This document shows positions 17,232 to 34,645 of a stretch of DNA of 39,568 nucleotides, one piece after another. Every line of letters begins with the position of its first letter. Position 1 is the stretch's first letter. The notes beneath the pieces were generated by a model. It did no database searches. It was not told where the DNA came from and was given only the letters and a program-made list of their open reading frames with translations. The position numbers were made by a program, and so were the translations under genes. This DNA is from an uncultured Mycoplasmatota bacterium (GTDB lineage: Bacteria > Bacillota_I > Bacilli_A > RF39 > UBA660), in contig CANRVY010000014.1 in assembly GCA_947643405.1 (NCBI GenBank), forward strand, positions 1-39,568, in the 5' to 3' direction.

Positions 17232-17268
17232 AAAATAATAAAAAATAAGCCTTAAAAGACTTATTTTA
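17232..17268 (-). terminator. Terminator of the comK homologue
   Basis: On the minus strand the hairpin AAATAAG-N10-CTTATTT is followed by a T-rich run. The comK stop codon overlaps the stem. Confidence 0.6.
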
Positions 17269-17715
17269 TGCAAGTTTTCTTTTTCTAAGAATTGATTCTA
17301 ATCTTGTTGCTCTTAAAATCTGATTTTCTAATGAACCATATGAAATTTCTAATTCTAAAGAATTGCCATTTTTGAAGTAAATAAAGGTTGCACAATCTTT
17401 TTTTGTATAATCTTCAATATGATTTAAAGAAATCCAAATGCATTCTTTTATTCTTGGTGATGTTGTTGGAAAAAAGATTAATTCCATTGTTTCTTCTACT
17501 ATAATTGGCGATTTATAATTTACTCCAATTAAGTTTTTTGTCCCCTCATGTCTTCCCATATAAGAACTTCCAAAAAATTTACAACTTTCATCAATAATCT
17601 GTGTAGATGATTGATTGACTAAAAAGCTATCTTCCAGTTCGATAATTTTTGATGTTGTTTGGTCTACTGGAACAATTGCTACTGTGGCAGAATTAATTTC
17701 ATAATTCTGTTTCAT
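17266..17715 (-). CDS. comK: ComK-family competence transcription factor homologue
   Basis: The 149-residue product matches ComK, the master activator of competence in Bacillus, along its whole length. Conserved stretches are YEINSATVAIVP (5-16), IIDESCKFFGSSYMGRHEGT (40-59), KSPIIVEET (68-76), LIFFPTTSPR (79-88), WISLNHI (94-100) and YGSLENQILRATRLE (126-140). It ends where B. subtilis ComK has about 40 more residues, including the FMLYPK element that binds the adaptor MecA, so that tail is absent. It stands alone between dnaN and recF, with terminators on both sides, in the place of the S4-domain yaaA of Bacillus. RBS AGGAGGGG precedes the ATG. Family membership is strong; a role in DNA uptake is inferred. 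Confidence 0.9.
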   Translation of the reverse strand: MKQNYEINSATVAIVPVDQTTSKIIELEDSFLVNQSSTQIIDESCKFFGSSYMGRHEGTKNLIGVNYKSPIIVEETMELIFFPTTSPRIKECIWISLNHIEDYTKKDCATFIYFKNGNSLELEISYGSLENQILRATRLESILRKRKLA

Positions 17716-28263: not shown

Positions 28264-28294
28264 TTTGGGAAATGATATTGAAATATTTCCCAAA
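28264..28294. promoter_or_regulatory. Everted ATTTCCCAA pair in the noc promoter (candidate operator)
   Basis: TTTGGGAAAT, an 11-base spacer and ATTTCCCAAA form an inverted repeat that overlaps the -35 and spacer of the noc promoter. The half-site resembles one half of the Noc binding site, but the halves face the opposite way. Binding by Noc itself would give autoregulation; this is inference. Confidence 0.55.
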
Positions 28295-28306
28295 GTATAG
28301 TATTAT
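28278..28306 (+). promoter_or_regulatory. Promoter of the noc-family gene
   Basis: TTGAAA and TATTAT with a 17-base spacer, about 30 bases before the ATG. The spacer contains one ATTTCCC element. Confidence 0.6.
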
Positions 28307-28334
28307 AGTATATAGAATAAAAAGGAGGATGACT

Positions 28335-29843
28335 ATGGATAATAGAAAAATTGTCGAGCTAGACTTAAATGATATATTGCCAAATAGATTTCAGCCAAGA
28401 ATTAAGTTTAATGAAGATTCTATTACAGAACTAGCTGAGTCAATTAAAGAACATGGTGTCATTCAACCTATTGTTGTAAGACCTTTAGGGGATAGATATG
28501 AAATTATAGCTGGAGAAAGACGTTATAAAGCAAGCGTATTAGCTGGAAAAGAAACAATTCCAGCAATTGTAACTGAGTTAAATGATAAAGATAGTGCAGA
28601 AGTAGCACTTATAGAAAATGTACAACGTCAAGATTTAACTCCAATAGAGGAAGCAATTTCATATAATAAAATTCTTGATATGGGATATTTAACACAGGAA
28701 GAATTGGCACTCAAATTAGGAAAAACACAATCAACTATTGCAAATAAACTAAGATTATTAAAACTTGATGATGAAGTACAAGAAGCATTATTAGAATCTA
28801 AAATCTCAGAGAGACATGCAAGGTCTTTATTAAAGTTAACGGATAAAAATAAACAAAAACAAATGTTAGCAAAAATAATTAATGAAAGATTAACTGTACG
28901 AAAAACAGATGAGGAGATAAGTAAAATGATGAATGAAAATGATAATAAGAATATAGAAATAATTGATTTTGGAAATACAAATAATACAACAACTCCAATT
29001 AATCAAGGAATAAATTATAACATTCCAACAACACCAATTGTAGAGGAGCCGGTTATTCCACAAGCTCCAGTGCAAGAAACACCAGTTGTAAATCCTGGAT
29101 TTATGAATGTAGAACAAATAGAACAAACAGCACAGGATATTAATGTGGCACCACCAGTAGCAAATATGGATGCATTGTTAACTCCAGCTGATATGTTGAA
29201 TACGGTTCCAACTCCACAAACAAATGTTAATCCAGTAAATCCATTTGGAGTATCAATGGAAACAAATGATGCAGATGATAGTTCAGCAGAAGCAATATTG
29301 AAACCTGGAAAGTTTTTTAACTTGTCAGATTTAGAAAACCCTGTTCTAGAGCAACCACAACCAGTACAAGAAGCTCCAGTAGAACAGCCAAATCCAATTT
29401 TGACAAATCCAACAGTGAATGTTCAACCAACTGTGGAAGTAGCTCCTGCCAGTCCAATCGTTGAACAACCTGTAATAGGGCAACCAACAGAGGTAGCAAA
29501 TAACTTTGTAACAAATTTTGATAATACTATGACTGAAAAACCAACTCCAATTATTCCTGCTAATCCAGAGCCACTTATTCAAACTCCAATAATGGAGCCA
29601 ATGAGTAATCAAACAATTGCGGTTCCTAATTATAATGAATTAGAATCAACAATGTATGGGGCGGTAAGTCCAATAACTCCATCAGTTTCTGAAATACCAG
29701 TTGGACAGAATAATATGAAGCAAGTAATTGATATTATTAGAGAGTGTTCTTCTAAAATAGAAGCCTTGGGATTTGAGATAGAAACTGAAGAATATGATTT
29801 TGAAGACATGTATCAAGCAATCTTTAAGATAAATAAGAAATAG
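28335..29843 (+). CDS. noc: Noc/ParB-family nucleoid protein with long disordered insertion
   Basis: The 502-residue product has a ParB-type N-terminal CTPase domain (GERRYKAS at 60-67; ENVQRQDLTPIEEA at 94-107), a helix-turn-helix domain (about 118-200, with GKTQSTIANKLRLLKL) and a C-terminal dimerisation domain (461-502, ending EDMYQAIFKINKK). The reading helices and C-terminus resemble Noc more than Spo0J/ParB, and the place after rsmG is that of noc in Bacillus. Between 205 and 455 lies a Pro/Gln/Asn/Val-rich segment with no counterpart in the roughly 280-residue B. subtilis proteins. The membrane-binding N-terminal helix of Noc is absent. GGAGG lies six bases before the chosen ATG. No parA gene follows. 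Confidence 0.9.
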   Translation: MDNRKIVELDLNDILPNRFQPRIKFNEDSITELAESIKEHGVIQPIVVRPLGDRYEIIAGERRYKASVLAGKETIPAIVTELNDKDSAEVALIENVQRQDLTPIEEAISYNKILDMGYLTQEELALKLGKTQSTIANKLRLLKLDDEVQEALLESKISERHARSLLKLTDKNKQKQMLAKIINERLTVRKTDEEISKMMNENDNKNIEIIDFGNTNNTTTPINQGINYNIPTTPIVEEPVIPQAPVQETPVVNPGFMNVEQIEQTAQDINVAPPVANMDALLTPADMLNTVPTPQTNVNPVNPFGVSMETNDADDSSAEAILKPGKFFNLSDLENPVLEQPQPVQEAPVEQPNPILTNPTVNVQPTVEVAPASPIVEQPVIGQPTEVANNFVTNFDNTMTEKPTPIIPANPEPLIQTPIMEPMSNQTIAVPNYNELESTMYGAVSPITPSVSEIPVGQNNMKQVIDIIRECSSKIEALGFEIETEEYDFEDMYQAIFKINKK

Positions 29844-29864
29844 CACTTAAATAGTGCTATTTTT
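29839..29864 (+). terminator. Terminator of noc
   Basis: A nine-base stem AATAGCACT with a TAAAT loop and a T-rich tail. The stop codon is in the left arm. Confidence 0.85.
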
Positions 29865-29888: not shown

Positions 29889-29894
29889 TATAAT
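29889..29894 (+). promoter_or_regulatory. -10 of the large repeat-protein gene
   Basis: A perfect TATAAT lies 26 bases before the ATG. The -35 position reads TATCTT, which is weak. Confidence 0.5.
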
Positions 29895-29920
29895 ATCCAT
29901 AGTTAGATGGGGGGATTATA

Positions 29921-32900
29921 ATGCTAACATATGAACAATTTATGAAGCTTGTTCCAAAAGAAACAGCAGCATTTGTATCAAAGGTATTACCTTATTTAGA
30001 TGGATATATGAGAGAAGATGTAAAGCTTCGATTTAAAGGTGATAATCAAGCTGGTCATAAAGATAGTAAAGCAAACTTTTTATTATTATATTGTCTTGCA
30101 GATTGGAAGGAATATAGTACTTTTTTAAAAAATTATGGCTTTGATATAGATAAATATAAAATAAATAGAGATTGGGTAGACTTAAAAGCAAACAGAGAAA
30201 TATTGTTTGAGAAGTTTAGTGGAATTTTTAATCTTTATGAAGATGAAACTTTATATACGAGTTTGACTCCATTAGATATTGTGAAAAGAGCATTTGAAAA
30301 ATATATTTCAAATTGTTCTATTTCAATTTTTGAATATTTATTTCCTAATATAGGATCTAATTCATTCTTAAAAGAATTAGAAAAAATGAGACAAGCTGAA
30401 AAGGTAGAAATAGAACATCAAACGGAGCAAGAAACTTATGGAAAACTTTCTATTTCAGTTATTTCATATTTAGAGACAGCTTCTAAAATAAGAACGCTAT
30501 TATATTCTGGTATCAAACAAAATAATGAATTGGTAAGATTAAATGATGAAGATATTGTTCCAATTTCATTATTATTTGCTTTATATTATTATAAAGATAC
30601 TCCATTAGCAGAAGAGGAAATAACGGAACAAAGTATTATTCAGTCAATGCTACAAGAAAAAGGGATAAATTTAGAAAAAATTTCAAATGCAATTGGGCAA
30701 AGTTTTTATGTCAATACAATAAGAGAAGCGAGAAAAAATGTAGATGCTATTAGATTATTATATTCAAAATATTATCATAGTGGATCAAATGAGAAAATAG
30801 AAGAAGCAAACATTACAGTGTCAAACATATTAAATAATTTATTTGATCGTAATTTTACAAATAGTTATGCAATAGAAAAAGTGTTTGCAAAATTAAACTG
30901 TTATGTAGGTGCCTTTTTACCAGTAGAAGAAAAAGTCGCAAAATTAAGAGATTCAGAAGAGCGAATTCATTCTTTGTCATATGTGAAAAATTTTTATGCA
31001 GAACTTTCAAAAGAATCTGGAGATTTTATTGAATTTACAACAAAGACTTATTTACTATTATTGGAAAAGATGAAAGAAAAAAATCATAATGCAGAAATAT
31101 TAGTAGATGAAGATGATGCTGATACATTAGCTTTATTTATTGCATCTTGTTATTATAAATTAGATGTTAGTGAATTCTTTGGCGATTATGGTATATCTTT
31201 AGAAAAAGTCTTTGAACTTTTAAATTTACAAGTTACCAAAGAGGAAATAGAAGCAATGAAGTTAAATCAAAAAGTTTTAGTTGATCGTTATAAGAGATTT
31301 GTATATGAAGGCGTAAATCGAAATAGATCAGCTAAGATAATACGTATTACAGATATTGCTCACAATCTTTGTAATAGAGAATTTAATCGTAGTATGATTA
31401 TGGAAAGTATTTTCTTTGAATTAACAAAGTCTACAGATTTACAGAGTGACTTTTTAGAACAATTAAGACTTCATTTAGAAAAAAAAGAACAAAATAGAAA
31501 GATGAGATTAACGCAACGATTATTTAAAGATATGCCAGTTAGTACTATGGAATATTTAGAAAATGCATCCATTATACATCAATTTCTTCTTGAGCACATA
31601 AAACAATATAATGAGATGGATATTCAAGTTTTATCTCTTTTGCTTTCTACCTTTGTATCTCAAAAATCAGATATTGCAGATTTTTTAAATTCTAAGAAAT
31701 TAACACTTAATAGTGTTTGTAGTTTTTTAAATATATCATCAAATAGCTTAACGAGAGGTTCTATTAATATTGATATTTTAGCGGAGCAATATGGAATGTT
31801 TATTTTTGGAGGTCACAATAAAGATTTAGAAAGAAAAGATTTAACGGTATTTAACATCATAAGAAATATTTTTTCAAAAGATGTTTATAATAGTGTTTTA
31901 ATTAGTAAATTACTGGGAAATTTTGGCTTATCATATGAAGATTTTGAAAATTTTAAAGAGAAATTTGAGACTTATTTAAAGGAAACAGAAGAAGCTAAAA
32001 AAATAGAAGAAGCAAAAGGAATATTAAATAGCTTTAGGGAAAATCCAAGACAATATATTATAAATGTTATACGCATTCATCAGCGATTAGTAAAAATTGC
32101 ATATCAAGATGAATCTGTAGCACGTTTAATTCCAAATATAACAGATGTAAGAGAGTTATCACTTTTATTAGGAATGTTTACAATCGAAAATGATGTTCAA
32201 CATTTTTTTGAAAAAAATAGAGTGACTCTTGAAAACATATGCGCATTAATTGGATTAGATAAGGATATTATAAAGGAACTAGAAGGAGAAGAGGTCAATT
32301 ATAAATTAATTTCTGATACTTATGAGCCTTGGATTCAATATGGAAGCTCAAATTATAATAGAACTGTATCAGATTTAATTTCTAGAGTTTTTGATAAAAC
32401 GATTGGAAAAGAAAGTTTAATCCTTGAAGAAATTGTATCATTTGTTGGTTCTAATTATGATATTTTAAAAGAAGAAGTGGAGTCTAAAAAGGATCATGAA
32501 TTATCTTTATCAATTGATGATAGAATTAAAGTATTATCAGAAGAAAGTGTAGACTCATTAGATTTAACTGATGTAAAAAGTATTCTCCACTTTGGGAATT
32601 CATTATCGATTCATTCAAAATATATTCATGACGAGTTACCAAGATTGATGATGAGTGATGCACATGATAAATCAGTAGAGACAATTAGTCATATTGTAGA
32701 TAAAATATATACTGAAGTTCCAGTAGAAAAGAAAAAAAGATCTTTGTTTGATCGTTTATTTGGTGTTGTAGTAGAAGATGAAGAACCTAAGTTGGTATTA
32801 AATCCAGATGCCATTCAAGAATTAAAAGATGCAATTGATTCTAATATAGAATCATTGTCAAAAGAATTATTAGGTTATGATGCTATTCGTAAATATATAG

Positions 32901-33547
32901 AAGCATACCGTAAGAAAAATCGCTCTCATCTTCTTGTTGCAATGTCAGAAACTGAAAAGGTAGAAGAAGAAGTTCAAAGTTTAAATCCAAAAAAAGAAGA
33001 AGATTATGCAGCATTTTTGTTAGCTACATCTAGATTACAGATTATGAGAGATAAAACAAATCGTTTTAGTACTTCTAATCATTTAATGAAACAAGAATTA
33101 TTGAAGGTAAACCAAGCAATTGTGAATCATTTTATTACAATAAATGCATTAGAGATGGCAAAAGATGATTTGCTTCCATTAATAGGTTCTGAATTAGCGC
33201 TTACACAAGGTAGAAATACTGAGAATAAGAGTTTAAATTTATCTGAAAATGTAATAGGATTATTTCAGTCTTTATTATCTAGAAATGTAGCAGGAGCAGT
33301 TGAAAATATGGAAAAGTTAAAAGGAGCGAACTTATCTGCTGATACTTTTGCCTTATTAAATAGGGATATTGAAGTTTATTTGCAAGGTCTCAATCAAGCT
33401 ACTCAATTAGAAGGAAGAGTAGAGCCATTAGATATCGATCAAGTTACAATGACTTCTGATTATACACCAAAATTAGTGTTAACAGGACAAGAAGATTCTA
33501 TTGATCAAAAAAATAAACAGATGATTTTGGAATATCCAAAAGAGTAA
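29921..33547 (+). CDS. Large cytoplasmic repeat protein of unknown function
   Basis: I do not recognise this 1208-residue protein. It has no signal peptide or membrane segment and reads as almost wholly helical. Residues about 1-860 form roughly five units of about 170 residues. Recurring pieces are a helix like ISVISYLETASKIRTLL (178-194), PVSTMEYLENASIIHQFL (539-556) and PRQYIINVIRIHQRLVKI (709-726); a hydrophobic ISLLFALYYY / LALFIASCYY / LSLLLSTF / LSLLLGMF helix; a G/T-I/L-LEKI element (INLEKISNAIG, ISLEKVFELLN, VTLENICALIG); and T-V-S-x-I-L-x-x-L-F-D. The C-terminal part (about 955-1180) recalls the helical TelA family, a weak impression only. It has its own promoter and terminator next to noc. 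Confidence 0.85.
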   Translation: MLTYEQFMKLVPKETAAFVSKVLPYLDGYMREDVKLRFKGDNQAGHKDSKANFLLLYCLADWKEYSTFLKNYGFDIDKYKINRDWVDLKANREILFEKFSGIFNLYEDETLYTSLTPLDIVKRAFEKYISNCSISIFEYLFPNIGSNSFLKELEKMRQAEKVEIEHQTEQETYGKLSISVISYLETASKIRTLLYSGIKQNNELVRLNDEDIVPISLLFALYYYKDTPLAEEEITEQSIIQSMLQEKGINLEKISNAIGQSFYVNTIREARKNVDAIRLLYSKYYHSGSNEKIEEANITVSNILNNLFDRNFTNSYAIEKVFAKLNCYVGAFLPVEEKVAKLRDSEERIHSLSYVKNFYAELSKESGDFIEFTTKTYLLLLEKMKEKNHNAEILVDEDDADTLALFIASCYYKLDVSEFFGDYGISLEKVFELLNLQVTKEEIEAMKLNQKVLVDRYKRFVYEGVNRNRSAKIIRITDIAHNLCNREFNRSMIMESIFFELTKSTDLQSDFLEQLRLHLEKKEQNRKMRLTQRLFKDMPVSTMEYLENASIIHQFLLEHIKQYNEMDIQVLSLLLSTFVSQKSDIADFLNSKKLTLNSVCSFLNISSNSLTRGSINIDILAEQYGMFIFGGHNKDLERKDLTVFNIIRNIFSKDVYNSVLISKLLGNFGLSYEDFENFKEKFETYLKETEEAKKIEEAKGILNSFRENPRQYIINVIRIHQRLVKIAYQDESVARLIPNITDVRELSLLLGMFTIENDVQHFFEKNRVTLENICALIGLDKDIIKELEGEEVNYKLISDTYEPWIQYGSSNYNRTVSDLISRVFDKTIGKESLILEEIVSFVGSNYDILKEEVESKKDHELSLSIDDRIKVLSEESVDSLDLTDVKSILHFGNSLSIHSKYIHDELPRLMMSDAHDKSVETISHIVDKIYTEVPVEKKKRSLFDRLFGVVVEDEEPKLVLNPDAIQELKDAIDSNIESLSKELLGYDAIRKYIEAYRKKNRSHLLVAMSETEKVEEEVQSLNPKKEEDYAAFLLATSRLQIMRDKTNRFSTSNHLMKQELLKVNQAIVNHFITINALEMAKDDLLPLIGSELALTQGRNTENKSLNLSENVIGLFQSLLSRNVAGAVENMEKLKGANLSADTFALLNRDIEVYLQGLNQATQLEGRVEPLDIDQVTMTSDYTPKLVLTGQEDSIDQKNKQMILEYPKE

Positions 33548-33568
33548 TTTTTTACTCTTTTTCTTTTA
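33538..33568 (+). terminator. Terminator of the large repeat-protein gene
   Basis: A perfect ten-base stem AAAAGAGTAA with a TTTT loop and T-rich tail; the stop codon is in the left arm. Confidence 0.85.
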
Positions 33569-33597: not shown

Positions 33598-34645
33598 ATG
33601 AAAAAAGAATATCAAGTAGTTATTATAGGTGCAGGACCTTCTGGGTTATCCGCTGCTCTTCATTTAAAAAAATATGGAGTAAAAAATATTTTAGTAATTG
33701 AAAAAGATATATTTCCAAGATATAAGTGTTGTGCTGGCTATATTACAACTAAAACAAGAAAGTTTTATGAAAGTTTAGGGCTCAAATTGGAGAATTGTCA
33801 CTATACATTAATAAAAGATTTTCATATTTTTTATGAGTATAAAAAGAGACAGACCATTGATAATAAATTTCTGTATACAAATAGAAAGATAGATCGAGTA
33901 GAATTGGATTATGAATTTTATAAATTAGCAAGAGAAAAGAATATAGAAATTTTAGAAGGAATAAAAATAAGGTCACACAATATAGAAAAATCAGAGCTTT
34001 ATTTATCAAATTCTGAAATAATTGCTTATCAAAATTTAATTTTTGCAGATGGGACTTTAGGATATGGTAGTAGATATCAAAAAAATAAAAAACGAAATAT
34101 TGCTCTTCAGCTCACATTTCCAAATGATCATTTAGATGAAATACAAATTCATTTTGGAATTACGAGAAAGGGATATGGGTGGGTAAGTAGTTATTAGGGG
34201 ATAACAAATGTAGGACTTACAGATGTGTATGATAGTCACAATAACTATAGAAAAATATTTTCAGAGTTCTTAAAGGAGTTAAACTTTGATATAAATTTGG
34301 ACAATTTGAAAGGAGCATTTACTCCAATTGGAATTAGGAAGCCAATTATTTATAATAATATTTTTTATGTTGGAGGTGCTGTAGAGCTTGTGATCCGCTT
34401 ACGTTGTCTGGTTTACGATATGGTTTAATGACAGGAGAAAAATGTGCTCTATTAATTGCAACAAAAATAAAAATGTTTATAAAAATTGTATTAGATGTTT
34501 AAAATGTAAGTTTCAATTTATGAAACTATTACAAAAAATATTTTATGTAAAGTGTGTTTTATTTTTAGTTTTTAATATAGGCTGTCGTTATTTTCATAGT
34601 CTTATAAGCTTCGCTTTTAATAATTTCTTTATTAATAAAAAGTAA
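33598..34645 (+). pseudogene. Broken FAD-dependent reductase (geranylgeranyl reductase family)
   Basis: The first 199 codons encode the start of a flavoprotein of the geranylgeranyl reductase family: dinucleotide-binding GAGPSGLSAALHLKK (11-25), FPRYKCCAGYITTK and RVELDYEFYKLA. After GYGWVSSY comes an in-frame TAG (34195). The same frame then continues with GITNVGLTDVYDSHNNYRKI up to VGGAVE. The reading then shifts to another frame, giving CDPLTLSGLRYGLMTGEKC, and later shifts again so that a Phe-rich C-terminal part (KLLQKIFYVKC...) ends at 34645. One nonsense codon and at least two frameshifts make it a pseudogene unless they are sequencing errors. Such enzymes reduce isoprenoid double bonds; the original substrate is unknown. 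Confidence 0.85.

Follow-up and report, generated by a model that had tools for sequence, protein, structure and literature searches.

A large accessory protein of uncultured Bacilli joining five Clp_N-like units to a TelA-like domain

We analyzed a stretch of 39,568 nucleotides (the window) from the 1.55-Mb draft genome of an uncultured member of the Bacilli and found that a gene located after noc, here called gene X, encodes a new domain architecture built from known modules. Five helical units, which probably share ancestry with Clp_N, are followed by a C-terminal domain that profile comparison and a predicted structure identify as a distant homologue of TelA (PF05816). This architecture is constant among full-length relatives and the sequence is constrained, while the gene is patchily distributed and its locus varies between genomes.

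Open reading frame, transcription unit and constraint

Gene X is a single intact open reading frame encoding a 1208-residue protein, as the first-pass annotation of this DNA had stated. The features of the locus and of the protein are as follows (window coordinates).

29836-29864, + strand: terminator hairpin 3' of noc, between noc and gene X, 12-pair stem with a U-tract
29889-29894, + strand: TATAAT box 5' of gene X, a consensus match only
29909-29914, + strand: Shine-Dalgarno sequence of gene X, a G-run read upstream of the ATG
29921-33547, + strand: gene X, 1208 aa, ATG start; five Clp_N-like units, then the TelA-like domain
29921-30436, + strand: unit 1, aa 1-172, divergent; the sole unit retained in a 554-aa relative (genome G126)
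30437-30970, + strand: unit 2, aa 173-350, from profile self-comparison and the AlphaFold2 model
30971-31510, + strand: unit 3, aa 351-530, one of the most constrained units by dN/dS
31511-32020, + strand: unit 4, aa 531-700, from profile self-comparison and the AlphaFold2 model
32021-32515, + strand: unit 5, aa 701-865, matching the N-domain of a ClpB/C-type AAA+ protein in genome G527
32516-33445, + strand: TelA-like domain, aa 866-1175, with a [ST]I-x-x-[FY]G motif, a short head and two very long helices
32729-32767, + strand: basic amphipathic stretch KKKRSLFDRLFGV, aa 937-949, in the coiled-coil head; TelA proteins have a similar stretch
33446-33544, + strand: disordered C-terminal tail, aa 1176-1208, pLDDT <50
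33539-33560, + strand: AT-rich inverted repeat over the gene X stop codon, followed by a T-rich run; likely terminator

The noc terminator, the TATAAT box, the Shine-Dalgarno sequence and the hairpin after the stop codon make it plausible, from sequence features, that gene X is a single-gene transcription unit with its own promoter and terminator, as had been proposed. A promoter scan around the gene gave matches no better than chance level. The hairpin at 33539-33560 was read from the sequence, in which the A+T content is too high for a terminator scan. Two congeneric copies were 86% and 84% identical to the window protein. Among the three congeners, dN/dS was 0.115-0.146 overall and 0.06-0.24 in each unit and in the C-terminal core; these low values in all parts indicate that the entire protein is under purifying selection. 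Neither a signal nor a membrane helix was found in the protein, in agreement with the first-pass annotation; the highest 19-residue Kyte-Doolittle mean was 1.06.

Repeat units and C-terminal domain

For self-comparison of gene X, profiles were derived from a 15-sequence alignment and cut into segments. Units spanning residues 165-352, 345-535, 525-705 and 695-868 matched mutually in a single register (P 1e-16 to 1e-26), and unit 1 (1-172) was more divergent, with P values of 1e-4 to 5e-7 against the other units. The C-terminal 343 residues matched no unit. In the AlphaFold2 model of residues 1-868 (mean pLDDT 86.9), every unit has the identical series of helices, with long linker helices between units. 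The placement of the units relative to one another is unsure because the pTM of this model was 0.49. The first-pass annotation had described about five helical units of ~170 residues and a different C-terminal helical domain faintly recalling TelA. The repeat signal was retained in self-comparison and the distinct C-terminal domain was recovered, and the likeness to TelA was confirmed by the profile alignment, structural search and Pfam matches of relatives given below.

Scans of the window protein alone against Pfam, NCBIfam, PADLOC and PHROG gave nothing usable, and a PDB sequence search gave chance matches only. The weak Pfam names DUF7687, RdfA, Gp-FAR-1, MPM1 and Egg_lysin were rejected, being below cut-off and differing between relatives. 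The earlier statement that the protein has no recognisable family therefore holds only as long as this one protein is scanned directly; its relatives bring out TelA and, probably, Clp_N.

We assign the C-terminal domain to a distant homologue of TelA rather than to a canonical member, because the window protein alone lies below the Pfam threshold: it has no TelA match at the 30-bit cut-off, and the C-terminal domain alone has none at E 0.1. Against a profile of clean TelA proteins from other Bacilli, hhalign aligned the C-terminal domain over 275 colinear columns (probability 94.3%, P 1e-7), and the units did not match this profile. TelA was also the commonest Pfam family among the C-terminal domains of relatives (7 of 25 matched, best E 3.3e-9). 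The domain of one full-length relative (L040) scored 33.6 bits against the TelA gathering score of 30, and those of other relatives scored 20-30 bits or nothing. The PHROG 'tellurite resistance' family matched L038.

The AlphaFold2 model of the C-terminal domain (pLDDT 81.8) predicts a small head and two very long helices. In a blind Foldseek search against BFVD (viral structures), tellurite-resistance/TelA entries took ranks 1, 3, 4 and 6 (probability 1.00, best E 2.9e-4), with TM values of about 0.35-0.48 and bent long helices. Long helical hairpins of the ClyA/AhlC type, matched by Foldseek in the PDB at E 0.06 or worse, were set aside as a likeness common to long hairpins, given that the protein contains neither a signal nor a membrane helix and that the match to TelA is far stronger. 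The head carries a conserved basic amphipathic stretch, KKKRSLFDRLFG, with comparable stretches in TelA; some relatives have only a weak version of it or none. In the window protein, residues 937-949 of this stretch are proposed to contact the membrane.

We consider it probable that the units share ancestry with Clp_N, as degenerate Clp_N double repeats. The evidence is moderate, each single test being below significance, and makes the assignment likely. A pooled unit profile aligned with Clp_N over 132 columns covering both halves (P 1e-4 to 2.5e-4, without database calibration). The highest-scoring Clp_N sequences came out at the top of a set of ~590 unrelated control segments, other Clp_N sequences being unremarkable; these ranks exclude eight segments from the gene X family or the G527 N-domain. 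Within each unit, the predicted short helices follow the order that a ClpC N-terminal double repeat would have. The sole PDB target of Foldseek with TM >0.5 was 8b3s (ClpC-NTD; TMt 0.52), at an E value of 7.4 that is not significant alone. The weakest match of the family-wide profile search (E 8.7e-4) was the N-domain of the ClpB/C-type AAA+ protein of G527, in which Clp_N was also faintly seen by Pfam. This protein (L121:7534-9195) has 553 aa, with a diverged Clp_N and apparently a single ATPase module. Pfam matched Clp_N (PF02861) in 2 of 18 relatives (best E 0.016, below the 20.7-bit cut-off) and not in the window protein. The glutamates that we take to form the phospho-arginine/adaptor site of Clp_N align, by eye in a weak profile alignment, with leucine and variable positions, and appear to be unconserved in the units.

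Distribution, architecture variants and genomic context

In whole-genome profile searches, relatives of gene X were confined to the GTDB family of the window. They were found in 18 of 288 genomes of the order sample and 21 of 386 of the family sample (about 6%); the five positive genomes among the 395 of the class sample all lie within that family. Phage and plasmid collections contained no relative at tblastn sensitivity.

All 18 full-length proteins (17 relatives and the window protein) consist of divergent unit 1, four further units and the TelA-like domain, and three of them, from one genus, have an additional N-terminal extension. Shorter relatives comprise a 554-aa protein that has, besides the C-terminal domain, unit 1 alone, and proteins of 564 and 794 aa with fewer units. 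The TelA-like domain is also joined to other N-terminal parts, including BspA-type leucine-rich repeats, behind which it is fused in L047:7746-9032 and L120:2800-4806. Genus g4 encodes an additional TelA-like protein, the N-terminal domain of which differs and is unnamed (L046:5469-7181 and L119:7229-8833); its genes lie near apparent pheS/pheT and a DinB-like polymerase gene. Gene X decays in some genomes (G433 and G002), and the G433 copy (L117:144-3665) contains many stops and frameshifts.

Three species of the window's genus are the only ones in which gene X follows noc. In G003, of the same genus, noc is directly followed by tsaC, an empty site in which window position 29836 joins 35924. 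In G002, also of this genus, a different 1224-aa gene follows noc and a broken gene X fragment lies elsewhere. G003, G006 and G007 have noc and lack gene X. The linkage to noc, the conservation of which the first-pass annotation had left to be checked, is a feature of one genus. As that annotation also claimed, gene X occupies the position that soj-spo0J has in certain other genera of the family; in the window's genus, however, soj-spo0J lies elsewhere irrespective of gene X (G001 and G003).

Several other genes at these loci were recorded. The product in the slot after noc in G002 (L152:6330-10004, 1224 aa) is an unusual sigma-factor-like protein with region 4 multiplied; Pfam identified sigma-70 regions 2 and 3 and six region-4-type stretches. 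Noc of the window (28272-29843) has 523 aa; its DNA-binding core is followed by a long low-complexity stretch rich in Pro, Gln and Val. In relatives, noc ORFs are between 467 and 890 aa long. At 33598-34428, an FAD-dependent oxidoreductase gene (geranylgeranyl-reductase-like) is apparently broken into 199-aa and 67-aa pieces; at the same site, the congeners G001 and G005 each have one unbroken ORF (349 and 360 aa). A ComK homologue (17266-17715) lies just upstream of gyrB/gyrA and suggests a competence regulator in this lineage.

In other genera, the neighbors of gene X differ; their names come from sequence reading unless scanned. The order murB-X-ftsQ-ftsA-ftsZ is found in G008 and G289, and G518 is alike as far as the contig end. 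In G483, a bona fide telA lies 3 bp upstream of gene X and ftsW lies downstream. Gene X follows spoIVA in G065, G072 and G227, a linkage of genus g58 only, and lies beside uvrB or folE in other genomes. At L034, a recombinase-like gene adjoins it. The murB-X-ftsQ and telA-X-ftsW loci may reflect a connection to division or the cell wall; these links could also be chance, because the neighbors of gene X vary so much.

In the noc tree, the window's genus groups with G008/G289, G483 and G189 (support 99/98). In the gene X tree, in which long branches are present, G008/G289/G483 stand apart from the window's genus (support 100/100), and the AU test rejected the window's genus and G008/G289 as one clade (p 1.6e-95). 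Either horizontal exchange or an ancient duplication followed by loss is needed to explain this conflict. These results suggest that gene X is an apparently mobile accessory gene. The window contains no tRNA, and no obvious recombination repeat was seen around the noc-tsaC interval.

Proposed role and relation to known systems

Substrates and adaptors dock on Clp N-domains. Proteins of the TelA family occur widely and have been linked to envelope stress and tolerance of antimicrobials. In B. subtilis, the TelA homologue yaaN (xpaC-yaaN) belongs to the core sigma-W regulon (PMC3498285); in Pfam scans of the window neighbors, xpaC (5-bromo-4-chloroindolyl phosphate hydrolysis protein) was not named. 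Disruption of telA in Listeria resulted in greater nisin and tellurite sensitivity, as cited in PMC12791056. Because of the analogy with TelA/YaaN, which belong to envelope-stress regulons of Gram-positive bacteria, and with the docking function of Clp N-domains, the most likely role of gene X is that of a horizontally exchanged accessory cytosolic adaptor or scaffold, docked at the membrane and serving envelope stress or maintenance of the cell wall and division; we propose this tentatively, at somewhat short of even confidence. The five tandem Clp_N-like domains would form an elongated arm, with the TelA-like coiled coil at the opposite end. This coil would dock at the inner membrane face via its basic amphipathic head and oligomerise, and the arm may bind one or several cell-wall or division client proteins under envelope stress. 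The amphipathic head, the telA-X pair in G483 and the recurrent nearness of cell-wall and division genes support this reading, as does the link of TelA/YaaN to envelope stress in the literature (PMC3498285; PMC12791056).

Given its mobility and the swapping of modules, the leading alternative is that gene X encodes a conflict/defence or phage-stress sensor, with the TelA-like domain as common effector or transducer and the N-terminal modules as interchangeable sensors. The patchy presence in 21 of 386 family genomes, the tree conflict, the many insertion sites with one empty in a congener, the recombinase-like gene at L034, the exchange of N-terminal modules for others such as BspA-type repeats and the carriage of TelA by phages are consistent with it. 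We nevertheless regard it as rather unlikely: gene X matches no PADLOC model, has no nuclease, NTPase or toxin domain, is absent from the phage and plasmid collections searched, and adjoins no recognised defence genes in the window. It is decidedly unlikely that the protein is a structural spacer of unrelated function (e.g., cytoskeletal or spore-related), its Clp_N likeness being helical convergence. The all-helical architecture is generic, the Clp_N statistics are weak per test and spoIVA adjoins gene X in genus g58, but several independent methods indicate Clp_N and the spoIVA linkage is limited to that one genus.

The resemblance of the units to Clp_N could also mean that they bind ClpC ligands or adaptors, delivering or withholding substrates at the membrane as a Clp-protease adaptor or decoy. 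ClpC is encoded in the window's genome, and stand-alone Clp_N proteins acting on Clp ligands exist (ClpC2). The extreme divergence of the units from ClpC, the apparent loss of the ligand-site glutamates and the lack of an adjoining clp gene in the contexts read make this quite improbable. As for the first-pass suggestion of a scaffold in segregation or division, the scaffold-like build was supported and the segregation role was not, because noc linkage is limited to three species and the gene X tree rejects the grouping in the noc tree. Although gene X adjoins noc in these species and division genes in other genera, noc linkage is absent from all other genera read, the site is empty in G003 and filled by another gene in G002, and three genomes with noc lack gene X. 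A scaffold for chromosome segregation or division working with Noc is therefore very improbable, and the part concerning Noc is largely refuted. An accessory, apparently mobile gene with Clp_N-like repeats and a TelA-like coil is likelier to encode a membrane-side adaptor than a segregation scaffold, and the case illustrates that a neighbor of noc may be accessory cargo without belonging to segregation.

The natural fusions of a TelA-like coil with arrays that probably bind proteins suggest a TelA domain acting as a platform on the membrane side, to which clients are recruited. It is conceivable, if somewhat unlikely, that gene X is the first of a class of multivalent adaptors, exchanged horizontally and docked at the membrane, that combine a TelA-like coil with interchangeable N-terminal recognition modules (five Clp_N-like domains, leucine-rich repeats and others); these would form a previously undescribed modular system for envelope stress or conflict.

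Compared with Clp_N (PF02861) of ClpC, ClpB and ClpA, an eight-helix double repeat of ~145 residues, the unit profile can be aligned, weakly, across both halves, and ClpC-NTD is the best compact PDB match of the units. Unlike these proteins, gene X has five tandem copies with long linker helices and no AAA+ domains; the sequence identity is very low and ligand-site residues are apparently lost. ClpC2-type proteins have a stand-alone Clp_N and act on Clp ligands. Gene X shares with them Clp_N-like domains without an ATPase, but has five such domains and a TelA-like domain, whereas the ClpC2 type has one domain and no TelA-like part. With TelA/YaaN/KlaA (PF05816), the C-terminal domain shares a near full-length alignment, the I-x-x-[YF]G start, an amphipathic F-rich head, a conserved proline near its end and a matching predicted structure in the blind search. 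The TelA proteins seen here are free-standing and of about 375-390 aa, whereas the domain of gene X forms the tail of a 1208-aa protein.
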